This document shows positions 2,685-64,000 of a stretch of DNA of 64,000 nt, in pieces. The notes below the pieces were generated by a model. The model was not told the DNA's origin. It did not search any database and saw only the letters and a list, made by a program, of their open reading frames with translations. The translations under genes were made by a program, and so were the position numbers. Numbering within the stretch: position 1 is the first letter of the stretch; every line of letters begins with the position of its first letter. The stretch comes from Bryopsis sp. KO-2023 (lineage: Eukaryota > Chlorophyta > Ulvophyceae > Bryopsidales > Bryopsidaceae). The DNA is taken from assembly GCA_030272585.1 (NCBI GenBank), contig BSYQ01000003.1, forward strand, positions 744,001 through 808,000, given 5' to 3'.

Positions 2685-4643
2685 CTAGTCTTGAGCTACG
2701 GGTTCGAGCTCCTGAAACTTTGGTTTCTTAGCTCTCAAAATGTTGTATGTCAGCCAGTAGTTGAAAAGCACCACCCTCCCGTTGGCCAGAATGGACTTCT
2801 TGACGGTCAGCCCATCATACCCCAACCAATTCAGCACAGCATCTCCATTTTTCATGGTGCCCCTGGTGCTCTTGGGATCTTCCTCGAACTCCACCCCCTT
2901 GAATTCATTGACCACGAGGCCTTGGAATCCCCACTGAATCAACGAGGCCTTAGGCAGCCATCTCAAAGGCTTCGGGGTGCTCTCCGGGTTGATATAATAC
3001 CCTCCGAAAACAATGAACAGAAGCATGACTGCTGGACCCAAGGTAACAGCCACATTAGTGTTCGGAGCAAGACCCCCCACCGACAACCCCACCCCAGCCG
3101 AGGCAAAAGACTCCACCACCAAAATCGCCATGAATTTTGCAAACCGCCGGGGATCTTTGTTCAATCCACACATGGGGTAGACGATTGCACCAAAAGCCGC
3201 CGGAAACAGGGCTCCGATGGGGACTTCAGCAATCAGCTTGGCCAGAAAATATGGAAACACCCCATACGAGTTTTTGGCTCTTTCCCGCGTTACGATGGTC
3301 CGTTCTGGAGGGAAAACGTTCAGCATTTTTGTCACTGAGGCCATTGCTGTGTTGATGGCTGAGACCTGGAGCAGTCCCAATCGGTCCTGGACCGTTGCTG
3401 ATGTCAGTTTCAGCCGGAAATACATCAATCCGAATATTATGGCTGAGTTTAAATTCACCCCCAGTCTAGCTTTGATGGCTGCTTTGTCCCTGGTGGCTTG
3501 CCTCCAGGACCTCTTCAAAAGGAGCTTGAATTGCCGATGGAAGGGAGGGTGCCCGTTTCTGCCCAGGCCTTTCCCCACCATGTCACCGTTCCCTCCCATA
3601 CTAGGAACGACTTCGAACCGAGATTTATCAGCGTCTTTCCATGCTGAGACCAAAGTCGCCACCCGTTCAACGCTGGTGGCCTCTGCCTCCGACGAAGACG
3701 TGTCGATGGATATCAAGTCCGCGAGGAAATCGGCTGGGTTGTAGTGCTCCGGGCAGTGGTGTCCATGTCCTTCGAAGTAACTCAAGACTTTGTTCGTGGG
3801 GCCCGAATAGACGACTTTTCCTGACGCCAGAAGCACCAAGTCGTCAAACAAACTGAAAACGCTGCTTCGGGGCTGATGGATGGAGCATATCACAGTCCGA
3901 CCCTCGTTCGCCAAGTTTTTCATCGTTTCCACCACTCGCAGCGCCTGAAAGGAGTCCAATCCGCTCGTGGGCTCGTCAACAAACATCAACGCGGGAGACC
4001 CAACCAGCTCGCAGCCAATGCTCAATCGCTTCTTTTCCCCGCCGCTTAGACCCCTGTTCTTAGAGTCGCCCACGGGGGTGTCCGCGCTCTGGGTCATCCC
4101 CAGTTTCTTGATGAGCTCTTCGACGAAGGCGTCCTTTTGGTCGTCGGAAACTTCCTTCGGCAGTCGCAGATGCGCAGCCATCGTCAGCGTCTCTCGAACC
4201 GTCAGCATCGAATAGAACAAGTCGTCTTGCTGCACGTACGCTTGCGGAACGTCTTTGATTTGGTGATGCGGTTTCCCGTTTACGTCCAGCGATCCCTTGA
4301 AAGTCAACTTTTTCGAGTAGGGGACCTGGCGGGCGAGCGCGCTCAACAGGGACGTTTTCCCCGCGCCTGATGGCCCCATAATCGCGACCAGGCGACCAGG
4401 AACCGCTCGTCCGCTGACGCCATCCAGAATCTTTTGGATCGAGCCGTCTTTCCTTTTCAGCTCCAAGCACAGGTCCGTCCAAGATAAGTGGATGGCGCCC
4501 TCCGCCTCATCGGATCCTCCCGACTGGTTTCTGCCATGCTTGAGGGCGTTGAAAGCCTTTACGGTCAGATACCCCGCGAAGAGAGGGACCTGATGCTGGG
4601 GAAGGGCGATCGCAGCGCTTCCGAGAAGAAACCCCAACACCAT
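2685..4643 (-). CDS. ABCG7: ABCG7-like half-size ABC transporter
   Basis: This is a 652-residue ABC half-transporter of subfamily G (WBC type), encoded by a single exon. The ATP-binding domain comes first: Walker A GPSGAGKT (residues about 90-97), signature LSGGE (199-203), Walker B LMFVDEP (219-225) and an H-loop His near 256. A hydrophobic six-helix membrane domain follows (about 390 onward) with the typical RQFKLLLKRSW entry and a VFGGYYIN segment. Family members act as dimers moving lipids or other hydrophobic substrates; the substrate here is unknown. Similarity is closest to the plant ABCG7 group. I chose the ATG at 4643 because an in-frame TGA lies 15 bases upstream. The N-terminus is hydrophobic (MVLGFLLGSAAIA) and could be a membrane or organelle-targeting segment. 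The gene diverges from the SMU2 gene. Confidence 0.92.
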   Translation of the reverse strand: MVLGFLLGSAAIALPQHQVPLFAGYLTVKAFNALKHGRNQSGGSDEAEGAIHLSWTDLCLELKRKDGSIQKILDGVSGRAVPGRLVAIMGPSGAGKTSLLSALARQVPYSKKLTFKGSLDVNGKPHHQIKDVPQAYVQQDDLFYSMLTVRETLTMAAHLRLPKEVSDDQKDAFVEELIKKLGMTQSADTPVGDSKNRGLSGGEKKRLSIGCELVGSPALMFVDEPTSGLDSFQALRVVETMKNLANEGRTVICSIHQPRSSVFSLFDDLVLLASGKVVYSGPTNKVLSYFEGHGHHCPEHYNPADFLADLISIDTSSSEAEATSVERVATLVSAWKDADKSRFEVVPSMGGNGDMVGKGLGRNGHPPFHRQFKLLLKRSWRQATRDKAAIKARLGVNLNSAIIFGLMYFRLKLTSATVQDRLGLLQVSAINTAMASVTKMLNVFPPERTIVTRERAKNSYGVFPYFLAKLIAEVPIGALFPAAFGAIVYPMCGLNKDPRRFAKFMAILVVESFASAGVGLSVGGLAPNTNVAVTLGPAVMLLFIVFGGYYINPESTPKPLRWLPKASLIQWGFQGLVVNEFKGVEFEEDPKSTRGTMKNGDAVLNWLGYDGLTVKKSILANGRVVLFNYWLTYNILRAKKPKFQELEPVAQD

Positions 4644-4795
4644 CCCCACAGAGCTGCTTCAAAACTGGACCTCGCACAGAATGCTAACGCCAAGTAAATG
4701 ACCATGGATTAAGGCAAAATTAGACAGACCAAATCCATAATGTGGAGTATGAGAAAGGGGAAAAATGCGTCCTCAACACTGTATCGTTGCGCGCG
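4644..4795. promoter_or_regulatory. Compact bidirectional promoter, ABCG7 / SMU2
   Basis: Only 152 bases separate the ATG of the minus-strand ABCG7-like gene from the ATG of the plus-strand SMU2 gene. Both 5' untranslated regions and both core promoters must lie here or within the neighbouring gene bodies. I see no clear TATA box. Shared regulation is an inference from spacing alone. Confidence 0.5.
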
Positions 4796-37936: not shown

Positions 37937-40900
37937 ATGACAGCCGCGGTGTTCGTCGCCAATTTGCCGACGGACCGGTCACTCGAGCCAGGCACCCCGC
38001 CAATCGGATTTTTCTATTCGCACCTGCACGAGTCGATTCGCATGGAACTGAACTCTATCTGGCAAACTGTCCTCGCCTTGGAAGCAGCAGTCCACGAAAA
38101 CTTCCCGGAAAAATTGTCGTCGGTGGAAGAGCGCTGCGTTTTCCTGCAGCAGATTTACAAGTACCACAGCGTCGCAGAGGATGAGGTGCAGTACGCTGTT
38201 TACGCAGTCATTTGAAATCGCGGTCGGCCGGCTGGTGTTTGATTCAGCGAAAACAAGACGGTGGATGGAAAGGGTCTGACACGGAAAACCTACGCTGTGA
38301 CGATTCAGGTGGTTTACCCGGCCTTGGATACGAAAGTGAAGAACGTGACGCTACAATATAGCGTGGAGCATGCGGACGAGGTAGGGCACATCCCTTGTTC
38401 TTTCCCTCTCAGGTTATTTTCCCCTCCTTGGCAATTCAAGCTATTTTAATTTCACGACACAGCACGTCACTCTGTTTGAAGAAAAACTTTTTCTTTCTTT
38501 CTTTTGTTTTGTTCTGGTTGTGAACTGAAACTGAAACTGTCACTCAGTTTCCTGAATATCTATTTTCTGCCCTGCTCCATGCTTGTCTGGGGTTTTTGGT
38601 TAGTGCTATAAATATTTCGAATCTTTTTTTTTTTGCAACAGGAGCACCTCTTCGTTCAACTGTTACAAATGCTGAGGGAAACAATGTCAGCCAGAGGGGC
38701 TGCAGTGACGGCAGCCATCAGGTGAAATTTTGGAAATAGGATTTTGGATGTAAAGGATTGGGTATGATTCTCTTCTGTCTGACATGCTTCAGTATTTCAT
38801 TCTGTGAAATATTGAAACTGAAACCCCATTTAGTGGTGGTTGCTCCTGGATGGCCTTCTTTTGACACGCTGGAGTTTTCACAAAAATTGCACAGAAGATA
38901 TTGGCATTGCAATTTCGTTTCAATGAACAGAAAAAACGATGTTGAGTGCGTTGAAAAAACCCAGTGGATGTTGCTTGATGCAGGGAATTTGTTTGCAAAA
39001 TGGGGGAGGTTCGAATCACACTGATGAAACATTTGGCCAAGGAGGAGGAGCAACTGTTTCCTTTGCTGCTGGAGCACTTTTCCTACACGGAGCAAGCAGA
39101 GTTGATCGCCCAGTTTCTATGTTGCATTCCTTTGGCCGCTGTCGAAGGGGTCTTGCTTTGGTTGAAACCTAACATTCCACAGGTAATAGACAGAAAAAAC
39201 TTCTATCTTGTTTTTTTTCCCACTTTGAATTGGTGTTACATTGTCAAGTTCTTTTTCAGAAAACAAAGCCCCACTTTAATAAAGGTTAATTTCCTGTTAT
39301 CGTTTTGTAGGAGGAGCAGGACCAGCTGTTGAAATACATCCGAGAAGCAATCCCAGACGACTTGCTCTTGAATTTATTAGTCACTTGGCTGGACCCAAGT
39401 CAGTCATCCAAACACGAGCTCAGTCCCCAACCCTCCGTCAAACCAGAAAACCTTGACCACCCACCCCTCAACCAAATTATCCACGTTCATCGCAGCATTG
39501 CAATGGCACTCGCTCAGTTCGTGGGGGAGGCTCGATCGATGCTTTCGCACGATGCCAGCGGGGCAAAGTTGGCTTCGTTGGTGGAGAAGCACAGGTTCTT
39601 GACAGCGGTGTGCAGATTTCATATGTTGTCCGAGGAGGAGGTTATGTTTCCTGAGGTGGACCGACAGCAGGCGTATGGTGAAAGCCAGTATTCTGGGTGC
39701 CAAGCCCAGCACGAAGAAGAGGTGGTGTGGTTTGAAGATTTAGGCAGGCTGCTTGCTGATGTTCGATCCAGCGCACGGCGAGGAGCAAAGGTGCAACAGC
39801 AAGAAATCGTCACATTTTGCAATATTTTTTGCCAGTTCTGAAACAAATCAAATTGCATGTCAGAAGAATATGGTCAGACATGCCCCTCATGTTTCTGACC
39901 TTGTTCATGATTGGAAGCAACATATTTGAGAGAATCTGGCATTGTAAATAATGGTATTCTTGTTTTTATGTGGAATCAAGGAAGTCGCAGAGCTGCTGGA
40001 TCAAGTGATACTTTGTGCAGAGCTGGTCAAAGCAAATTTGGGCCAGCACATGGAGAAGGAAGAGGCTGAGGTGTTGCCAGTCCTGCAAGAGAACCTTTGC
40101 GCAGCCGAGCAATGCATTGTGGTCTGGCGAATGCTCAGAATGATGCCGTTGAGGTTGCTGGAGCGAGTGATGCCATGGCTCTCTGGTAAGCGAATGAATA
40201 CATGGTTTGCAAGAAATATCTCGCACTCTTGTTTTGCTATCTTTGAGAAGGAAGCCGTTGTTTTCTGGAATCAGATATCTTTGAGAAGGAAGCCGTTGTT
40301 TTCTGGAATCAGACCTCTCCACCAATTTCTGTCTGGTGCAATTTTTGATTCGTAAAGACAATTTTGGGCTCGAAATCAAGATTCCTGCCCATCCAATGAT
40401 GGATCCCATCACATATCACAGTTATGGTGAATTTTCAACAGGCAGTCAGAGCGAAGCTGGAGCAGCTGAGTTGCTGGCAGCCCTTCGAATCGGTGCCTCT
40501 AATGTCGACGGAGCAGCAGTCGAGCTTTTGGCCAGATGGGTGCACAGGGGCTGCTCTCCGGAATTCAACGATGTGATGCAGGCTGATGACCCTGGGCTGT
40601 ATCACAATGACACATGCGAAACCCGAGTTGTGAAAGAAGCTTCGTCAGGAGAGGCGGCGAGCACTCGGAAGAAAAGGAAACTCCGTGAAGTGGGTTGTTC
40701 TGCCGAGCTCAGTGATGATGCCGGAAGCCATAGTCCATCAGGTTGGTTCAGATTCCCAACAACAGATCATGTTCACTGGGCACTTGCCCTCCAAGACAAG
40801 CCAGTGGCATATTTTTGGTGAATTCGGATTTGCATACTTGCCTTTCTTCATTAATTTTAACACCTTGGGGCTCTCTGAGGAGCTGTGTCAGACATCCATG

Positions 40901-43821
40901 CCTGAATGAACTGTGGGTTTTTTTTTGTTCAGTTTCGGGGGGCATGTGGGGTCCATCGCCTTCTTTGCCCATACCCTGCGTTGGGCCCAGTCCCATCGAT
41001 CACATTTTCCAGTTTCACCGTGCTCTGAAACGGGATTTCAGACAGTTTGAAGCCGAGGCAGGCAAGCTGTCGGAGCTGTTGGAAAGTGGCGTTGCCGATT
41101 GGGACGATGCCATACAGAAATTGAAGGGGCGATTTCAGTTTCTGCGTGGAATTTACATGGCGCACTCTTCCACGGAGGACGATGTCGTTTTCCCTGCCTT
41201 GGAGTCCAAAGAGGCTCTGAGGAATATTTGCCATTCTTATGTGTTGGACCACAAGCAGGAGGAGGAGTTGTTTAATGATATGGGCGTGGTAAGGAAATTT
41301 TCACCACCATTTGTTGGAGTGAAAAGGAAAGTAGTTCGGGTGGATATTGAAGAGATCCCTGATTTGTTCAACCAGGAACCCACTGCTGATTGTGCAACAC
41401 CGCTTTTATCTTTTAAATCCAGACGTATTCTGGAGTGTTTCATAAAATGATTGTCAATCTGATGGGGTTGATCTGTGGCATTCACAAAAGCATGATGCAT
41501 GATGGTGGTTTTGTATCTGTCGACATTGTATGCAGGCTATTTCCCGCTTGAAGGAGAAATGCACTGCCGAGGAGATGCGAGGCTTGGTCCTTGAATTCAA
41601 TCGTAAATGTGCTGCTGTTCGGGCTGCACTCGAAATCCACGTGAGGGCCGAAGAGACTGAACTTTGGCCTTTATTCGCTGAGCACTTCACGCTGGAGGAG
41701 CAGCACAGGCTGGTCGGTGCGATTATCGGCCGGACTGGTGCCGAGGTGCTGCAAACCATGCTGCCCTGGGTATCAGGTAGGGAGATGCTGTGAAGATGAG
41801 AGGGCAATATGGGGATGTGGTGCTTATTCTTTCATCAAGCGACATTCTACGGCAATTTGGCATGCATTTCAGGGATCCAATTCTCGGAGTACGCCGTCAG
41901 AAATTGAGCAGTACATCCCCCCCCCTTCTTGTGTCCTTGTTTTTGCCTGTTCCAATTCGGGTTCCTTATTGAGACTTTTCATTTTTTTCCGGCAGGGTGC
42001 TGTACATTAGAGGAGGAAGATCAAATGATGGAGTCCCTGAGAGTGGCTTCAAAGAACACGATGTTTGACAGGTGGTTGGATGCTATTGGTGGGCCGGCTG
42101 GTCAAAGAGCCCAAGCATCCCAAGTTGAGCCTTGCTCATCTGATGCAGACGTCCATGCCCCTCTGGTTGAAGTAGCTCAGTACCTGAGATCCCGTGGTGC
42201 GTGGAGTTTCTGTGGTTTTCCTTCTAGTTTGAAAAAATGCTTGACGCTGAGCACTTCTTTACAGAAACTGAAAGGAGCAGAAAGGAATATGTTGCATCTG
42301 GAGCTGATGCATATGGTGGTGTTTTTTTTTTCAATTTGCTCAGGTTTGGAGATGGCCACATCGTTAGAGCAATCAGGCACGGTTGCAGAAACCAGCAATT
42401 TTCGTCCGGGCTGGGAAGATATTTTCAGAATGAACCAAAAACAATTGGAGGCAGCGGTTCGGAGGGTGTCGAGCGATGACAGCCTGGAGCCCAGCCGGAA
42501 GTCTTACATAATCCAATGGATAATGGTGTCCAAATACATCGTTGCCCAGCAAGGTCTGGCTCACAATGAAAAGAAAGACGAGACGGCGAGCGCCGAGGGG
42601 CAGCCGGATTCAAAAGCGGAAGGGAGGGGGGATGTTTCGAAAAAATTTCGGTCGTATCATAGCGAATCGGAGGGGGTTTTTGGTTGCCAGCATTACATGA
42701 GGAATGGAGCGCTGGTGGCCCCATGTTGTTCGCAGGTTTTTGCTTGCCGGCTGTGCCATGATGAACAGGCAGACCACAAAATGGACAGGTAGTTCGTTGT
42801 AGGGGTTCATGCCACGTGTGTATTTTGGCCAACAAGCTTCAGGATATTATTCCACGGCCGCACACACACTTGGAAAATATATATATTGCTGGTACCACCT
42901 AGGGGCATTCATTCCATCCAAAATTTGATATTTTAAATCTGGTTTTAATCCAGCCGAGCAGTAGGAGTAGGAGGAGGTATGTTTTGGTTCCTTTTTTTGC
43001 TCGAAAAACTCGAGAACATCTTTTTTCTATACAACAGGTACAAAGTTACGGAGATGGTCTGCATGCCTTGCGGGAAACGCCAGCCCGTCGCAGCCGCCTG
43101 TGTGGAATGTGAAGCCCCCATGGCGGAGTATTATTGCAGCATTTGTCGCTTGTTCGACAATGATCCCAGCCATGACATCTACCATTGCCAATTCTGCAAC
43201 GTGTGTCGGAGGGGCAAAGGCTTGGGCATAGATTTCTTTCACTGCATGGAATGCAATGCATGCATGCACATGAGCTTGTTCAACCGTCACAAATGTCGGG
43301 AGAAATGCATCGAATGCAACTGCCCGGTGTGCAACGAAAATCTGTTCGACAGCAGCCAGCCCATCAAGGTTAGTCATCTTTGGACTGACTATGTGTCTTC
43401 TTGATTGATTTTTCTTTGTATATTTTGAATCGCTGCTGTGTTTTCTCCATTGATTTTTGATTTTGGGTGACTGGTGTGTTTTCTCCATTAATTTTTCATT
43501 TTCTATTTGGGGTTTTGACTAATGTGTTATGGTGAATGCCTTCAGGAATTGCCATGCGGGCATTTTCTCCATTCAAATTGCTTCGCCACCTATTCTCAAT
43601 GGAATTACACTTGCCCAGTGTGTTCCAAAAGCATCGGAGACATGTCAGCATATTTCCAAATGCTGGATTCGCTGCTCATTTCAGACCCAATGCCACCGGA
43701 GCTGAGGCACCTCAAACAGCAAATCATTTGCAATGATTGCTGCAAGAAGAGCCACGTTCCCTACCATTATGTGTATCATTCTTGTGGCCATTGCCACTCC
43801 TACAACACCAAAGTGTTGTGA
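37937..43821 (+). CDS. BTS: BRUTUS-type hemerythrin / CHY zinc finger / RING E3 ligase
   Basis: Thirteen exons: 37937-38185, 38309-38380, 38642-38721, 38984-39182, 39311-39790, 39981-40185, 40442-40741, 40933-41288, 41536-41776, 41996-42196, 42344-42788, 43038-43368 and 43546-43821. Phases match throughout, giving 1144 residues (Arabidopsis BTS is about 1250). There are three hemerythrin domains at about 20-215, 255-430 and 550-730, each keeping its His/Glu ligand signatures (for example [35 protein letters not shown]). A CHY finger ([10 protein letters not shown]...[11 protein letters not shown], from about 905), a CTCHY region, a RING-H2 (CPVC...CGHFLHSNC...CPVC, about 1040-1085) and a C-terminal zinc ribbon follow. 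In plants BTS binds iron through the hemerythrin domains and ubiquitinates transcription factors of the iron-deficiency response in the nucleus. The same role is inferred here. Confidence 0.94.
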
Positions 43822-53189: not shown

Positions 53190-54191
53190 TTACTCAACGG
53201 GGCGGGTATATTCTTGAATTCTGTGATCCTCCCCGATGCATGGATAATTCATGGGCGGCTGCTGCCAAGCAAGAGCTTCATACAGTCGAAGGCAAGCAAA
53301 AGCATCTGTGGCTGCATACTTGTGTTGACTGGGCGACAATTGAATGGCTTCCCAATTGCTCATGGAGAGGCTCTTTGCCTTTTTCATGTCCATGCCCAAC
53401 ACCATGTCGACCAGCTTGATCATCCCAAACGATGGCCCCTGGCAATTGTATATCCTGAAAACAATTAAACTTAGGACATATAATTGGGAAAAGAGTTGAA
53501 GGCTTTTGACTTTTGCTTCCATGACTTGACCAGAAAAAGGAGCATAACGACCACTAGCTGAATAATCTCCAAAACTATTTTCCAAAAGCATGAAACGAAA
53601 AACACGTTTTTGGAGTATTAAAAATGGGTGTTCTTCTGTTTTTTCAATGAAGAGCAAAACATTCCAACTTGCCCATCCTTGCCTCCCCCCCCAAAACAAA
53701 AAAAGAAAAAGAAATGGAATTACGGCTAACCTGAATTGCACATGGGTGTCTACATCAGAGTAGCCTTTGAGGTCAACTCCATAGTGCCTCGACAGCTTGT
53801 GAATATCTTGATCCAAAACCACCCCAGCTTTCGTAACGCTCGGATCCTCCAGAAAGCTCTTCAACTTTGCAGTCATGCCCGACAGCGAAACGTGCATCAA
53901 GAGGCAAACGTAGTTGGAATCGTGGTAACTCCAGAAAAACCTCCTGAAACAGATCTGGATGAGCGCGATCCGATTGTTTTCCCCCATGCGAAACTCGGGT
54001 TTCCACTCCGTGTCGAATCCTATGGTGGCGATGCGCCAGTATCGCATGTAATCGCACCACCAATCAATTGTCATAGGATCGTTGATGTAAAAAACGTCGC
54101 CATTGTACTCGAAGCTAGGCTGGGGGGCCCTGCCACTGGATCCCAAGCCAAAGCCTCCACCTGCGAACAGGGGGGAAAGGAGAGTGCCCAT
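53190..54191 (-). CDS. WEX: Werner-like 3'-5' exonuclease (WEX type)
   Basis: DnaQ-fold 3'-5' exonuclease of the Werner/WEX group, which degrades recessed DNA ends in the nucleus. Two exons (54191-53731 and 53454-53190) join in phase for 241 residues if translation starts at MGTLLSPLFAG. The exonuclease motifs are complete: Exo I with FDTEW, Exo II with VVLDQDIHKLSRHYGVDLKG and Exo III with YAATDAFACLRLYEAL (Tyr and Asp). The start is uncertain: the frame is open to 54344, and an acceptor-like CCCTGTTCGCAG lies just inside this exon, so an upstream exon with a different N-terminus is possible. The open frame upstream also offers a hydrophobic start (MMGGFSLFLLQ), which would be odd for a nuclear enzyme. 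There is no helicase domain, as is usual for plant WEX. Confidence 0.85.
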   Translation of the reverse strand: MGTLLSPLFAGGGFGLGSSGRAPQPSFEYNGDVFYINDPMTIDWWCDYMRYWRIATIGFDTEWKPEFRMGENNRIALIQICFRRFFWSYHDSNYVCLLMHVSLSGMTAKLKSFLEDPSVTKAGVVLDQDIHKLSRHYGVDLKGYSDVDTHVQFRLAVIPFLFLFLFWGGRQGWASWNVLLFIEKTEEHPFLILQKRVFRFMLLENSFGDYSASGRYAPFSGQVMEAKVKSLQLFSQLYVLSLIVFRIYNCQGPSFGMIKLVDMVLGMDMKKAKSLSMSNWEAIQLSPSQHKYAATDAFACLRLYEALAWQQPPMNYPCIGEDHRIQEYTRPVE

Positions 54192-55786
54192 ATACGAGGG
54201 ACAAGAAACCAGGGGCAACAGAGCCTGCAATAAAAACAAGGAAAACCCCCCCATCATTCCCAGTGAGTCATCCAGAAACACAGGATCAACACAATAACAA
54301 ATACTGACTTTGGAAAAGGGGGCAGATTTGGTGTCAATACCCAAGTTTCACATGTAGTGTCGAAATGATGTTAAAACGCCATAATGGTGTTTAATATTGT
54401 GAGTGGACTTTCGATGAAAGCTCCGAGCGGATTGCAAACTAAGCAATATGATTGAAAAATAAAAATAAGTGTTTATATATATGGAGAGGGGAGTCATCCT
54501 GGTCTTCCATTTCCCTGATGACATCGTTTCTAGAATAGCACAGGGATGGGTGCTATTTTTGGAAGGATCACTCTCTCTTAGTAAACATCAATGGGGGGCA
54601 ACTTCCAGAATGCATCAAAACACACAGATCAATGCAATCTTGGGACGCAGCGCCAGATTCTTTTCCTTCACGTGTTTTTACGCTTTTCAAGAAGAGATGG
54701 AAACCCTAGACGATTATGGACGTTTCTCGAACGAGGTCGCGATAAACCGTATTCGAAGGGGGGCTTCTTGCCTTTTCCACTTCCTTACTCAAGACGCGGC
54801 GTCAAACAGAGCCACGAGGTTTATGGTTTAGTAAGGGGCGAAACGAAAGACACGCGATCGGGGTGGATCCACGCCGGAAACCAGACAGGAGGATCCCACC
54901 TCGCAAATTAGTATCAAGAACGTTGAACTTCAAACCGAAGACGGTCAACTCTCGAAAAGCGAAAAAAACAAAAAAATAAAAAATAGTTGAGTTGAAGAAT
55001 TAACACCAGAAACGAGGGGGAAACCCCGCAACGGCCCGTTTCCTCCCGTCTTAAACACAACTCGTTCCCCGTTTCTTCTGTGATTACTCCCTCCCTCTCC
55101 CCCCCCCCTTTCATTGTGATCGTTCTTGCTTCGGTTTGTTTTTTTTTTCTTGCATTACCGGTTCGCGGCCAAGAAGCTAGCGGTCGAACCAACGAGGTGG
55201 GCAAAAGGAAAGAAAGTATATGAAGGAAACGACAGCGCTCGGTATTGAATTTCTCTGTGTGGGTCCGCCTGTGCTACGGAGCACCTTCAACGATCCATAG
55301 ACAACACGAAAAAACACGAGCGGAAAGCGATCCCCAGCTTCCACAGAGGGGCACGACAAATCGTAGTTGACACGATGCAAGAGGTCGACGAAAGATCCTT
55401 TTTTTGCCTTGGGTCGAAATGGACCAGAATTTCGATTACGCATCCACTCAACCGCCAGTCAGCCGCATGACATGCCCCAACTTTCTTTCCATCCAAAAAA
55501 CAAGGCACACCATGCCAACTGCATTTCCCTTTCCTCTTGCTTTAAAAACAGGGAAAAAGAAACATGTCTGAAACACATAACAGAATCAGCTCCTTGCTAA
55601 AATTCTATTTTTGGAGCCAAACGAAGTCCCTCGAAAACAAAAAGAGCAAATGTTGCAATTCTCTTCCACCCCCTATAGATTTCCCATCTCGACAGCCCCC
55701 TCAAAAGAAAATGCAAATATTTTCAAACTATTACAAGAATTATTTCTACCTGTGAGAAAAAAAAGCCTGCCCCCAAATCCTACCAA
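54192..55786. other. Intergenic region without a recognisable gene
   Basis: Upstream flank of the exonuclease gene and 3' flank of the MIP2-type gene. Short open frames on both strands carry no motif. No repeat or RNA gene was seen. Any missing 5' exon of the exonuclease gene would lie at its left end. Confidence 0.45.
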
Positions 55787-58700
55787 TCAACTCGACACTA
55801 AAGTTCTCAATTGGGCCAAAGCTTCCTTGCAGTCTTGGGACATTCTTTCCAGCAGTCTCCTGGTTGTATACGGCATTCCACTCACACGCAAGATCTGCTC
55901 ATACAAACCCACATCCACTGGTGCCCCCATGACAGACACTAAGTACCGCTCTAGGATTGCTAACCCCCCATCGATCGTATTCAAACTTCCATGCAACCCC
56001 ATTTTCTGACTCACCATCGAAGCTGCCAAGGTGAACCTCTTAGATCGGCACAAACATGCGACCAAGCAAGGCAACAAACAGGAACAAAGCAACACCACAC
56101 CTTCCCAATCCTCTTGCCCACCAGAGCTTGATGGGACCTCCCCATGATCGCTTTGGGGCAACCGAGCTTCTTGGGGCTGTTCCGGCAACCGAGCTTCTTG
56201 GGGCTGTTCCTCAACTTCAGTACCTTCATTGAGAGGTTGGGATTGAGGCCGTTGAACAGGATCTTCGACCTCATTACCTCCGCTGGGGGATGGAGGATCA
56301 TCACTACCATTCAAATCCATATCAACTTCTGCATCCCCTGAGGGGATCCGGTCAATCCCTCCACTACCACCATCGCCACCACCCCCATTGCTTTCACGAG
56401 CACTTGTCGATGGACCTTCAAGGTTTCCTTCGACCTCTCCACCAGCAGCACCCAGTAGCTCCCCAAGGTCATCATCATCGTCCCAGCCATCCACACTCAC
56501 TCCATCCACACCTGGGGGGTTCCCTCCATCAGGTTGTACCTCCTGAGCTTCATTCTGTGGGGGGTCGCTGGCCAGCTGGCCAGCCGCCCTGAGCGTCTCA
56601 TCCCAGCCATCATCCTCGTCCCACCCAGACCCTTCCTCAACACCTGAACCAGGATCCCCCATCCCAGGCTCGAGTCCCTCCTCAGCAATCCGTGAAATTG
56701 CAGCTTCGTAACTAGGACCTGCTTGGTTGGAGGTGATCTCTTCCTGACGCTGTGCCATCTCAGCAGCTTCCCGCAGGGTCTGGGTCCATTCGTCCTCCTC
56801 ACTACCATCACCCCAAGCCACCTCATCTTCACTGGCTGGCATTGGAGGCCCAGCATGATTAGAATCAACCTGATCACCAGCAAGCTCTTGCGCAGCACGC
56901 AAGGTTTCGGCCCAGGCTTCATCGTCACTGCCATCGCCCCAGTCACCTCCCCCACCTTCACTTGGTTCATCACTAGCAGGTACAGGAGGAGAAGTGGCGA
57001 CTGGGTGATTGGTTTGGTCCGTTGCAAGTTGTTCGGCGGCTCGTAGTGTTTCTGCCCAATCCGTTTCATCCTCATCGTCGCCCCACCCTTCTTCCAGCAA
57101 GTCTTCCATGTGGTCAGCATCTGGGGCATTCTCTGGGTTCCGATCATGATTGTCTTCAGCAGCATCCACTGCTGAGCTGTCAGGCTCCCTGGCATTAGCA
57201 TGATTTTCGTCCAGGCTTTCCTCCTCCTCCCAGTCCCGATTCCATTCATCATCCAGGCCTTGATGGTTGTCCTGCCGGGCATTTGCAGCCACCGGCCCTG
57301 CTGAAGTTTCAGCCGCACGACCATGCTGATCGGGGCGAGGCTCCGATGCATCTTCCAAACGCCGGGCTTGCAACTCTCTGGTTCTAACCTCTTGACAGTG
57401 TTCCCAGAAATCTATCAGTGATGGATGTGGTGCAGAATCCACCAGGGGCTCAAGCAAAGCTTCCTCAAATTCTGATGAATCCATCACACCCGACAGCAAG
57501 TCACCTTCCAGTAGCAAACCGAGGGTTGGCCCATCGCATCCCGCCACACTTATTCTCTCCAGAGCCTCCTTTTTCAGCTCTTCAAAGGGGGCCATGAGGC
57601 CAGCACACACGGAATGACGGGCGTTACTCAGCGATCGAACAACATCCCCACTTTCTCCAGGTAACAACAAACTGAGAGTTGCACATGGCTCAGCATTGGT
57701 GTCCACTGGAGGAACCCAAGCTTCTTCTCTGATCGAATCCAGCGCCGACAACACCCCTGAAACATCACCTTTTTCAATCATGGCTAGGAATAACTCAGCC
57801 CATGCAGAATGGAGAGGGACGACCCCCACCCCTCCACCAACATCCTCTGGCCCCGTCCAAACCAATCCATGGTTCCAAACACCCTTCAGAAGCTCAGCTA
57901 GGGTGGTCAGAGAACCGCCAAACTCCCTCAGCATGTATGAAAACAGGGCTTGACAATCAGAAAGCGTGCCAAAACTCTCCCAAGAGAATTCAAGACTGCT
58001 GTCATCACCCAGCACCGCCACGGTCTGCGAAAATAGCAGTTTCGATCGAACGGCATTCCCAACTGCAGCTCCACCTCTTGACCAGTCCTGCCAGACCTCC
58101 CCATTTGCCAGCGACCCATGAAGGTCGAACAATTTCACCACATTATCGTGAACCAAGGCATCTCCCTCCACCCCCGAGCAGAAAATCGATATCCTGTCCC
58201 AAATAACTTCTCGAGCCGAATCAATAACCTCTCTGACCTCCTCTGGCACTCCTGATATCTGCAAGTCCAAACAGTTGACTACCGAAAGCACCGAACCAAA
58301 AACTGGCTCATCCGACTGTGTGAGAGATTCCAGAGCAGCACCCAAATTTTCGGTCAAAATGTCGGTAACCTGCATTGGCACCGAGGTGGATGACTCAGCA
58401 TCCCCAGTCCTTGCTACGCTTCCTGCGACTTCGAGAATTACATCCAGTTTGCTCCCAGAAGTCAGCAATTGCTTAACCACTTTCTCCAGTGCAGGCCCAG
58501 AGGGGCCCTCTCCATCATCCTGAAGCAGCTCCAGAAACTCAGTCCCACTCAAACCAGCCAATCGTTGAGCACTGTCCAATGCATCCAACCTCCTGAGCTC
58601 CTTATCCAAAGCCTTGACCCCATCGCCATCAGCAATCGAACTCATTCTCAAACGCGCCACCCCCGCAGTCAATCCCCATATTCTCAGGTTCACTGGCAAG

Positions 58701-61700
58701 TCGATCGCAATATCGCTCAAATTGACCACATCTCTGTAAGGCTGTGAACCCTCCAAACAACACCATTGCAGAAATTCCAAAATTTCTTCCGCCGACATTT
58801 TCTGGAAGGTAGCCCTCCAGAACTCTTCGGATTCAACCAGCGATCCTGGTAACGAGGTGCTGTCATTTTGCATGAAAAGTTCAATCTGCTGGAGCATCAA
58901 ACACCCATAAACTGTGGAGGGGGTAACAGCTGAGGGGGTGTTTGTGATATTTGCCAATTCATCCACCATATCCGCTAGAGCAACCACACTCTTCCTGCTG
59001 ACAAATCGGTAGACCTCTTGCAGGCAAGCGTTCCTCACCTCCAGGCCTCTTTCGAAACCCAGCTGGACATTCAACGAATCCAGAACTATACATTTCATAT
59101 CAAATCCATCCAGAGATGCACCAAATTTTGTCACCGTCGACCCAATTGATCGCAGCTTCCCTGAGGGCTTGCCGGCTGCTTCCACTCCTTCGTCAATCAG
59201 GTTGAGAAAACATGCCAGCTTTGGCCAATCATCCCCAGATATATCTTCCCAAACCTCGGACCAAAGCTGTTCGACAAATTCATCAGGCCGAGATAGAACC
59301 TCGATTCGGTGTTCCTCCATGATTTCCATGCATGACGTAATCTCCTCCATCGATCGAATCACGGATACCAGGAAAGCCATCGTCAATCCCCATCTTTCCA
59401 CTGCATACTTTGCAGCCAGGTCCAATGCTCTGTCGAACATCACCTGAGCCCTGTTTTTGGACTCTCCACCAAGTGCCAGCATTTCTCCAGCAAACGCTGC
59501 TTGTTCTGTCAATAATTCTTTCCTGTACTTTTCATCCCCCCCTGCGAATCGCATTACATCAACCCCTGGCATCACACCCTTCATCCCCCTGGCATCCTCG
59601 GCTGCTTGGATTTCGCCCAATACCGTTTCAATTTCTTTCATTTCCTCCAATCTCTCCCCACAATTGGACCTAGCAAATGAAAGCAATTCTTGCACTGGCA
59701 TTGCAATGAGCTCTTCCAGAGGTCTTTTACCAGACTGCATCCGAAACACTCTGGCAATCAGCGTCAAAGTGGTGGCACGCTGGAAGGATTTGAAACTGTG
59801 GGGTGTGTTGTGGTTAAAAGTTGAGGATCGGGTGTCGAGGAGAGCGTGCAATGCTAGGGAGACATCGCCCATCGACAGAAGATCCATTTGCAACGGAACT
59901 GAGGAAGGATTTGTTGCCAGAGCTCTGTTGAAAACCTGCTCCGTGGACTCAGCTTCAGCATGGGCTCCTGCATGCAGAATCAATCATGGTGCTTAGGCTG
60001 ACTTGGAAAGGTTCTCTTGATAGAAATCCTCAATGCAGTGCAATTTCTCTGTAGGATTTTTTTTCATGAATCCCCCCCCCTAGAAGACGTGTAGATAGTC
60101 TTGCAAGATGCCGTCTCTCCTGGAGCAAAACATGCAATCCTCACCTCCATTCTCTTCCGCATCGCAACTCTTGAGCGCCTCCACCAGGTCCATAAGCCTG
60201 TCTTCAGGACAATGAGCAACCGCGAATCCCAAAAGAGTTTTCCTCCGATCCCTGCCTACTCTTTCGCCCCCTTCAACAGCCACCGATGCACACAACTCCC
60301 AAGCTGCACCCGGCCCCTCCTTCGCTAAACCAGTGGACACCTCCTGGGCAACCTCGAAGTCTCCGGCTTCCAAGGCCGCTTGCCCAATCATCAGATCCAC
60401 TTTGACATGTTCCTCATGTGAATCCAATCCAAGGAGCTTCGCAACCCCCCTCAGAGTGTCCAGATCCTTGTAGTTGTCCGGTTGAGCTTGCAGGATGTGA
60501 GGGATTACATCAATCCGGCTGGGGAGCTGCTTCAGTTGCATCGGCAAGAGTGTGACACCAAACTGCGGCAGCTCCAATAAGGCATCGAGCGTTGCTAGCT
60601 CCGTGTTCGCTGCTTCGGACTCCGGCAGGAGCTGGAAAGACTTCCTGGCATCCGAAATGGCCTCGTCTTGGAGCGAGGAGCTGGAGTAGAGGAATTCACG
60701 TCCGACAGACAGCACCAGGGTTTCTGATGATCACCACACGTTACAAACGACGTCAACCTTGCTTTTTGTTGTACTCAGGCCCTCAATAAAGCAAAAACCT
60801 GACACTTGACTGAATCGGCAGTGCATATAGGTGAAATGGAGCAGTAGTGGTGGTGAAATATCAAAGAAGAATTATTAGAAGAGGTACAGCCAGCCACATA
60901 GGGAAAGTTTAATGTCAATAGCAAAGCCCTACCAGCAGTATTGCCCTCAATACTCGGTGTTCTGTCTGCTGACAGATACTCCTGTGCAACACCAAATGCC
61001 CCTGCTCGGAGAACCGCCCTGCAAACCTCTCCCAACACCACCGACTCATCCAATAGACCACAAAGAGCACCAGAAAGCGATTGCAGATCTCCCCACAAAG
61101 CATCCCATTTGGTCCGAGGCCAGCCCCTCCCTGCCCTTGATGCCCTCGACAACAAGGACCTCACTGTCCTGAGGGCAGATTCGCTGTTCAAATCTCGCAC
61201 CTTCCAAACCGTCAAGGCCACCCCATAGCGTGAAAGGATGCACCCAGCTACAACCACCCCATTCAATCGCTCAATTTTGGAAACCATCTCTGCAATGACA
61301 GGATCATGACCCCCATTGCTATCGACGTGGTTTTCTTGCTGATTTTCCGAGTTCATCGGCAGACCACCTGTCACCAAATTTTGAGTAGCAAGATGGCTTA
61401 TGGATGCCTTCACAAAGTCCATCAGGGCTGAGAGCTTTTCCCATTCTTTGTCTTGAGGTGCTTCATTCACCACTGACACCACCACCTGACAGAAATCCAC
61501 CACCCCCTGCTGATCAACCCCGAAAAGCATCCCCTCCTGAGTTTCCAACTCCACAAGCTTCACCACCCACCCTGGCCTAGTCTTGAATTCCTTGGTCAGC
61601 AAAGACGATATGTGCTCTTTTCTTGAAGCCCTATCCAGGTCCCCAACCAATATGACAATCTTCTCATTGAGATCCTGTTCAAGTGTTTGCTCTGTGGAGG

Positions 61701-64000
61701 CCCCCAACACGAGGACCAGTTTATCCAAAACGCCCAGCTCTGAAAACTCAGAGAGGCCAATGTTCCACACCCCAGTCGTGCCTCGGACAGTCGATGACAA
61801 AACTTCCACGTTTTGCACAGTCTCCCCCACTCTACCCCGAATCCCCTTGCCGTAACACATTTCAAGAAACACCTTTATGCCACCGAGTTGGCCTGTTACT
61901 ATATCCATTGCAGCAGCCCTCTCAACACACCATTCAGAAATCATTTCATCGGAAATCTTCGGCTCGGCAGCTCCGGTGGATAGCATCCTGAGTTTCACAA
62001 TATCTTCTGTGGCCCCAATCATGCCTGTCTCCATGTCAGACTGGGATTCGATCAAAAAAAGTATGGTGGATTCTGTCTCTATCCAATCAGGGTCCCTGTG
62101 ACCGGAATAGTAAGCGGAGGGGGTGGAATCCACAGTGGGAGTGATATGGACCACAGTATGAGGGTCCATAGTTTCAGGAAGCTCAGACAGGATTTGGAAT
62201 ATATGGTTGAATAAAGTGAACGTGTGCCTCTCCAGCAGAACCTGCATCAGGAGCCCACCACAACAAGAGCAATGCTAAGGAAAATTTTAACAAGCCACCA
62301 CTGTTACTGATCCATAACATGCAGAAGAGCCCTCATGTGTGAAACCATTAATGTACTGGAGAGGATTTTACGCTCCATCCCCTCAACACACCTCCAGGGC
62401 TTTAGCATTGCCTGTTGCAGCGAAGCCCATAGCAACCGAAACAAGATTGGAGTCTCTGAAAGCAGCGAATGCGGCATCGCTGTAGCCGCCCTTGGTGATC
62501 AGCACGAAGGTTTCCAGACGGTCCAAGGCCCCCAGCAGTTTCAATCGATACTTCACAAACACTGCCGATTCGCTCCCATCCATCGGAATCTCATCGAGAC
62601 CATCTCTGCCAACACAATAAAACCTATTTTAAGTACCAGGAAATCTATAACGAAATGCAATCTGGTGTTCCGACAAAACCATTCTTCAAAACCCAATCAC
62701 CACCTCTAATCTTTTCCCTACCCAAGCCACCATCTTCTGACTTTGGTGATGCGTACCCACAACATAGCTCGGTTTGTTTCAGCCCATATTCCAGCAAAGC
62801 CCGCTCCTCAGGGTAGTCCTCAGCTGCCCGTTCCAAACACTGGCTCACCACCCACTGCCTGTCCTTTATCTGATCCAAATTCGAGGCCATGTTTTCATGA
62901 CTGACTGGGTGCAGACTCCACAAGCCTCGGTAGACCTGATCAGTCCCCAGCCCATGTTCTTTCGCCAATTCCAGAGCTTCTTCTTCACAACCCTTCCTCA
63001 ACAAAATATCCAGCATTTGTTGAGGGGTCTGTTCAATCAACATGTGCAGCTCACCCTCCCAAGAGTCATTGCTTTAAAACGAAAGAAAAAAGATGGTCAA
63101 ATCCAGACAAATCGAGGGAAAATTGCTAAGACAAATCTAAAACGAATGCTTGACAGCGAACAAACCTGGATGCGCTCATGACAGGCTCCATGGAGATCAG
63201 TCGATGAACGGAGTGGCTGCAAACACTAGCTAAGTTTGGTGGATACACAAAAACCTCCCTGGCAACGATGTCAAATCCAGGGAGAGCAACAAATATCATT
63301 TCGCCAGTGGTGGAAGCCACCGATAAAACGTTTTCACTCCACCACGCCACATGCTGAACCCCAGAAAGGCTCTGCTGCAAGTCGCTTGAATCAGCCATCT
63401 CAGGACCGATCAATTTCCCAGCATTCATCGACAGCACCTTCACAGTCCCAAAAGTGGGTGCGATCGCCACCAGCTCCCCATCTGGGGAAAAAGCCAAAGC
63501 GCATGCAGTCGATGATTTGGTTGCTCTTCCCCACAAGCTTCCCAAAAGCCCTTTTGATGGTTTTTTCCCGAAGGATTGAATAAAGGTTGCTCCCTTCCTG
63601 GAGAATTTCCAGATCGATACTGTCAAGCCTTGGAGGTTGTCAATGCTGGATTCCCCACCATTCCCCTCCCTGGCATCTTTTGGGCCATCCCCCACCACTA
63701 CGAAAATATCATTGTGGGCAGCCACCCCTCGAACGACTCCATGGTACGAAGCCACGTTAGCGACCTGTGCAGCGTCTCCCCCGTAGTCTACTGGGATCTC
63801 ATACACCTTGCCATTGATTCCGAACGCAAAAAGCTCGGTGAAAGTCACAAACGCCAGCCCCACGAGGCCACCTTGTCCTAAAGGAGTGCTACGCGCAACC
63901 TGCAGAGTCAAATCTTTGGAGAAGAGCCAGGTCGTCCCGCACTCCCCTCCAACAGCCAATAGGCGTCCACACGGCGACCAGCAGCAGCAAGAAATCCCAC
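55787..64000 (-). CDS. MIP2: MIP2/NBAS-type Sec39-domain ER tethering protein (5' end outside window)
   Basis: Partial; the gene continues past the right edge. Exons (high to low): 64000-63166, 63071-62757, 62605-62392, 62241-60933, 60723-60145 and 59967-55787, all in phase, for about 2477 residues so far. The N-terminal part has beta-propeller features (CWSPCGRLLAVGGECG, ALAFSPDGELVAIAPTFGTV). The Sec39 region starts TPQQMLDILLRKGCEEEALE and runs through DRLETFVLITKGGYSDAAFA and SEWCVERAAAMDIVTGQLGG, all typical of plant MIP2 and animal NBAS. These proteins scaffold the Dsl1/NRZ tether with MAG2 (RINT1/Tip20) and ZW10, receiving COPI vesicles at the ER. Between 56,200 and 57,350 is an unusual acidic linker with five repeated Trp motifs. 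A conserved C-terminal helix block then ends LAQLRTLVSS. Confidence 0.9.

Follow-up and report, generated by a model that had tools for sequence, protein, structure and literature searches.

Members of the NBAS family tether COPI vesicles at the endoplasmic reticulum (ER), as described in passages of PMC4206994 and PMC4871884, and the proteins that bind the NBAS propeller or its C-terminal part are still to be identified according to the part of PMC4206994 that treats them. A gene of this type in the green alga Bryopsis sp. KO-2023 raises the question of how a tether might hold its vesicles, as the C-terminal part of its product carries a repeated acidic tryptophan motif. The first-pass annotation of this locus had proposed an array of five such motifs in a MIP2-type tether and had read it as a possible device for multivalent capture of COPI through delta-COP. 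Here, the host gene, the number and age of the motif copies, and the candidate partners are considered in turn. The window is the whole 64-kb stretch that was analysed (positions 744001-808000 of the contig), and all coordinates below refer to it. A Trp array in NBAS or MIP2 was not described among the matches listed in a search of titles and abstract starts of the openly licensed literature.

The Host Gene

Judged by its domain matches, the gene that bears the array is an NBAS/NAG/MIP2-type (Sec39-family) tether. It lies on the minus strand and extends past the high end of the window, such that the gene start is outside. The most upstream exon frame (63126..63998, minus strand, open at the window end) has WD40 and beta-propeller matches, including ANAPC4_WD40 over its cut-off (E 4.2e-7), and these WD40-type matches correspond to the N-terminal beta-propeller of the NBAS/MIP2 family. 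Downstream on the same strand, the exon frame at 60080..60730 matches the Sec39 domain PF08314 above the cut-off (E 1.6e-6, 27.3 bits, cut-off 22), while the frame at 60775..62274 matches it under the cut-off (E 0.0012, 17.8 bits). The NBAS/Sec39 assignment is based on an above-threshold Sec39 match together with WD-repeat matches further upstream, and it agrees with the MIP2-type host named in the first-pass annotation. An open piece at 63073-62645, between the WD and Sec39 frames, reads as more protein. At E <= 0.001, PF08314 has a single match in the whole genome (91 Mb, 28 contigs), which is that of the tether gene.

The 3' part of the gene is a long open frame (55787..59983, minus strand) of 1398 amino acids from stop to stop, which includes part of the C-terminal extension, then an acidic linker, and ends with the final 99 residues of the protein. 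The true exon start probably lies a few codons inside the upstream end of this frame. WD-repeat matches, a Sec39 domain and a long C-terminal extension are features shared with the NBAS/NAG/MIP2 family. The 1398-residue frame has no Pfam match at E 0.01 and no match to solved structures up to E 1, and the best structural matches of the Sec39 frames (E 0.96 and 0.49) are to unrelated proteins. Pfam also includes a family for the related kinetochore protein ROD; no such family was listed when five frames were scanned at E 0.01. Beyond the tether gene, on its 3' side, a minus-strand frame at 53193-54347 encodes a 3'-5' exonuclease domain (PF01612, E 1e-19).

Several other features were observed in the window. 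Between 19000 and 37000, two neighbouring minus-strand frames of Ty3-type chromodomain retroelements (26782-21509 and 34452-29110) contain stretches that are 79-83% alike. Both lie between direct repeats of 100% identity (20696-20935/27409-27648, 240 nt, for the first; 28336-28605/35772-36041, 270 nt, for the second), a sign that the insertions may be recent. At 40734-42789 (plus strand), frames for hemerythrin and for a CHY zinc finger adjoin. They resemble the plant BRUTUS-type iron regulators, in keeping with a genome of the plant lineage. At 2688-4658 (minus strand), an ABC ATPase precedes an ABC2 membrane domain, a domain order that is characteristic of ABCG half transporters.

The Acidic Linker and the Motif Copies

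The acidic linker (56087..57250, minus strand) is 388 residues long and is separated from the stop by 99 residues. It consists of 27.6% D/E and 3.6% K/R, has a net charge of -93, and holds 12 of the 28 Trp residues of the 1398-residue frame. Its composition suggests that it is probably disordered and flexible. Four copies of a motif are found in this single open frame, each with the form W-x-[E/Q]-T-L-R-x-A-x-x-[L/M]-A preceded by an acidic run. These are copy 1 (WGDDEDETDWAETLRAAEQLA, 57023..57085), copy 2 (WGDGSDDEAWAETLRAAQELA, 56879..56941), copy 3 (WGDGSEEDEWTQTLREAAEMA, 56753..56815) and copy 4 (WDEDDGWDETLRAAGQLA, 56570..56623), all on the minus strand. The codons of the first and second Trp start at 57085/57058, 56941/56914, 56815/56788 and 56623/56605, respectively. 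In copies 1-3 the first Trp (in W-G-D) is located nine residues before the second, with 8 residues between them, while in copy 4 the first Trp (in W-D-E) is located six residues before the second, with 5 between. Eight core positions are common to all four copies, six of them identical and two conservative. The acidic, Trp-based character of the motifs and the W-x-[E/Q]-TLR-x-A core proposed earlier are thus borne out for four copies, which lie where the annotation had placed them.

The core is patterned like an amphipathic helix, as W0, L4, A7, L/M10 and A11 would share one helix face. The hydrophobic moments of the 13-residue cores are 0.46-0.51; for each of the four copies, 0.5-4.5% of 2000 shuffles of its own residues attain a moment as high. 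Taken together, the composition, the copy statistics and the hydrophobic moments make it very probable that this acidic, probably disordered chain with its four putative helices has the layout of a multivalent linear-motif bait.

Proximity of Trp residues is by itself not significant in a linker this rich in Trp, as at least four W.{1,8}W pairs occur in 4002 of 20000 shuffles (observed, 5). The core, in contrast, stands out. Only 46 of 20000 composition-keeping shuffles of the 388-residue linker contain at least one W...LR.A, of which four are observed, and the best gapless self-alignment of the linker scores 109 compared with a maximum of 71 across 60 shuffles. When W-x-[EQ]-T-L-R-x-A is searched as a DNA pattern on both strands of the 64-kb window, it matches exactly four times, at the four copies, and not at all in 100 dinucleotide shuffles of the window; since the pattern was derived from these same copies, this count is after the fact.

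The fifth copy of the proposed array fared differently. The segment concerned (WDDDDDLGELLGAAGGEV, 56432..56485, minus strand) lacks the core residues: WDDDDDLGELLGAAG lies near the expected register, and when it is aligned to the four copies the second Trp, the Thr and the Arg are missing. Its core score is 5.0 (6.25 in the other register) compared with 44-49.5 for the four copies, and falls below other stretches of the linker, which score up to 7.5, or 9.5 at WNRDW. Its hydrophobic moment is ordinary. A 14-nt DNA match (93%) between its first Trp region and the second Trp region of copy 4 is weak support for kinship and can be due to chance at such a length. Consequently, the segment was not accepted as a genuine core copy, although a decayed remnant of the motif is possible, and the five-copy array is reduced to four. 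At the upstream end of the linker, a weak WNRDW followed by acidic residues (57230..57244, minus strand) fits Wx(1-6)[WF] and has no TLR core.

Age and Origin of the Copies

The codons of the copies indicate that the array is old. Across the 12-codon cores of the six copy pairs, pS is 0.75-1.18 and saturated, while pN is 0.07-0.28 and unsaturated. Degenerate codon pairs that encode the same residue are identical in 6 of 42 cases compared with 12.7 expected from the codon usage of the frame, these pairs being drawn from four copies and not independent. Since synonymous sites are saturated and the other sites are not, the copies are old and the protein motif has been kept since they separated. 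The four-copy motif array is real and selected.

The spacers of units 1-2 and 2-3 remain alike, as fractions of only 0.005 and 0.003 of 400 shuffles score as well; the remaining 8 of 10 spacer pairs show no likeness (0.052 to 0.81 of 400 shuffles are as good). The likeness of these spacers points to tandem duplication for at least the units concerned, and an origin of units 1-3 by this route fits the sequence. A recent DNA repeat as the source of the array was rejected due to the saturated synonymous sites, the lack of a tandem repeat that spans the copies, and the presence of one direct-repeat family of only 14 nt. Tandem Repeats Finder gives two rows between 55800 and 57600, neither spanning the copies: one at 56157-56210 (27 bp, x2) and one at 56567-56584 (8 bp). 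The former is a perfect tandem repeat in the same linker that encodes EQPQEARLP twice, and it is recent, unlike the Trp motifs.

Comparison with delta-COP Ligands

The tether family serves COPI vesicles at the ER, acidic Trp motifs bind delta-COP elsewhere, and homologs of Dsl1 in several groups other than yeast are described without a lasso. On these grounds, COPI capture by the array is plausible and COPI is the leading candidate partner, an assignment to which we would give somewhat less than an even chance. Suckling 2015 is reportedly a structural paper on delta-COP and Trp motifs. The published delta-COP motif consists of two aromatic residues separated by 1-6 residues, typically 2-3, in an acidic stretch (passages of PMC11441981). 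Acidic Trp motifs in Dsl1, Gcs1/ArfGAP1 and insect FAM114A bind delta-COP, and in FAM114A the replacement of both Trp residues by Ala markedly lowers the recovery of COPI (passages of PMC7145657, PMC6737914 and PMC11441981). According to section 8 of PMC4868844, plants, animals and aquatic fungi have homologs of Dsl1 that are without the COPI-binding lasso of yeast, and tethering by a ZW10 that has no acidic region needs clarifying according to the relevant part of PMC4206994. The same section of PMC4868844 notes that UVRAG has been reported as the link between COPI and the tether in mammals, so NBAS need not provide it.

The reading of the copies as delta-COP-type motifs holds in part. The linker provides the acidic surroundings of delta-COP di-Trp ligands (27.6% D/E vs 3.6% K/R), the motifs are based on Trp, and the host is of Sec39 type. 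The spacing, however, fits only copy 4 and the weak WNRDW: a W followed by W or F with 1-6 residues between occurs twice in the 388-residue linker, at copy 4 (5 between), the sole full copy inside the published range, and at WNRDW (3 between), whereas copies 1-3, with 8 between, lie outside. A plain delta-COP di-Trp motif is not supported for the array as a whole. The same division appears in comparison to the ELM class LIG_deltaCOP1_diTrp_1, or Wxn(1-6)[W/F], which covers Gcs1/ArfGAP1 and insect FAM114A, and Cex1 by likeness: the Trp pair and acidic surroundings are shared, copy 4 and WNRDW are within its spacing, and copies 1-3 are not. One motif each is named for Gcs1, Cex1 and insect FAM114A in the passages that treat them, compared with four copies here. 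Furthermore, the part that is most alike among the copies is the helix-like core, which lies outside the delta-COP definition printed in those passages of PMC11441981. Because copies 1-3 are off the spacing and the core has no counterpart in the published descriptions, as far as these passages go, the array is not classed as a set of delta-COP di-Trp motifs, although it may work like them.

The array resembles the yeast Dsl1 lasso, which binds delta-COP and alpha-COP, in having several acidic Trp motifs on a stretch that is flexible (here, probably so) in an ER tether of the Dsl1 family. It differs in that the array is encoded in the gene of the Sec39/NBAS subunit, while the lasso belongs to the Dsl1/ZW10 subunit, in the wider Trp spacing of three copies, and in the additional W-x-[E/Q]-T-L-R-x-A core, which is absent from the lasso descriptions in the passages available. 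In a more specific and more tentative proposal, the multivalent array would be a new helical class of coat-binding motif, and the catching of COPI that is done by the Dsl1 lasso in yeast would reside in the NBAS/Sec39 subunit in this organism of the plant lineage.

Other Candidate Partners

The helices could instead dock within the tether complex, on its other subunits, or on SNAREs of the ER (ZW10, RINT1, SCFD2/MIP3, Use1), in which case the array would organise the complex and not catch a coat. Conserved amphipathic helices are common subunit-docking elements. The array is located in the C-terminal part of the protein, and in human NAG residues 1036-2371 bind ZW10-RINT1 (passages of PMC4206994). 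Four spaced copies would better suit a repeated or multivalent partner than one stoichiometric subunit, and docking of this kind is considered unlikely, if the best placed of the remaining proposals.

Still less likely is the recruitment of a different protein from the cytosol. This could be UPF1, for nonsense-mediated decay at the ER, or else a kinase, a Rab or an adaptor. Human NBAS has been proposed to recruit UPF1 to the ER (PMC7397857). The failure of the AIM, FFAT, clathrin-box and adaptor-ear expressions to match any of the four copies counts for such a client, while against it no motif for a partner of this kind was recognised in the array. AIM/LIR, shuffled AIM, FFAT, clathrin-box and alpha-, beta2- and gamma-ear motifs were each rejected for the copies, as the expressions tried for them gave no match there; the AIM/LIR expression [WFY]xx[LIV] matches the linker once (WEGV at residue 1293), outside the four copies. 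When a 203-residue piece with the array was compared with solved structures, only four MCM2 sequences were returned (best E 0.14). In Pfam, this piece matched DUF6894 (E 0.0053), WYL_3 (E 0.022) and three more families (E >0.4), all below their cut-offs. DUF6894 and WYL_3 weaken to E 0.17 and 0.23 with the 388-residue linker, and these names were set aside.

Helices of the ubiquitin-interacting motif (UIM) type were also considered, in which the L-x-x-A-x-x-[L/M]-A face would bind ubiquitin or the UIM-docking site of Atg8 and connect the tether to ER-phagy or ubiquitin signals. UIM-Atg8 binding exists, and a relaxed expression, [LIVM]xxAxxx[SA], matches the linker exactly four times, at the four copies. 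A UIM, however, consists of an acidic run, a hydrophobic residue, Ala and an invariant Ser, and this Ser is replaced by Ala in all four copies, while the Trp, Thr and Arg that the copies conserve are not known as UIM features. The strict pattern has no match, and no UIM match was listed by Pfam up to E 10, at which the HMMER filters drop many weak matches. UIM identity of the copies was rejected on these grounds, and a UIM-like function is regarded as improbable. Equally improbable is a lineage-specific acidic repeat of little specific function that is kept by composition, given the codon evidence: acidic, Gly/Pro/Ser-rich linkers do readily expand and shrink, the separate 27-bp repeat lies in the same linker and the fifth copy may have decayed, but drift does not yield eight core positions common to four copies with saturated synonymous sites.

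Proposed Mechanism and Implications

With COPI as the preferred partner, the following mechanism can be proposed. Close to its C-terminus, this NBAS/MIP2-type ER tether bears four short linear motifs on the acidic and probably disordered linker. Within each motif, an acidic run would lead into a Trp and a short amphipathic helix, formed on binding, whose W, L, A, L/M face would dock in a groove of the partner. Each copy would bind weakly, but several of them on a single flexible chain would provide avidity, such that the tether could retain a partner that likewise occurs in many copies. This partner would most likely be the COPI coat of incoming Golgi-derived vesicles, contacted at the mu-homology domain of delta-COP or at an alpha/epsilon-COP region. 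The Sec39 subunit would thereby take over the work that is done in yeast by the Dsl1 lasso.

With a repeated motif under selection towards the C-terminus of an NBAS-type protein, the question of tethering becomes testable with short peptides. Placing a COPI bait in the Sec39 subunit would close a gap that is stated in print, namely that the Dsl1 homologs of plants and animals are without a lasso (PMC4868844, section 8), and, if true, would explain how COPI vesicles are captured by a complex whose ZW10 has none.
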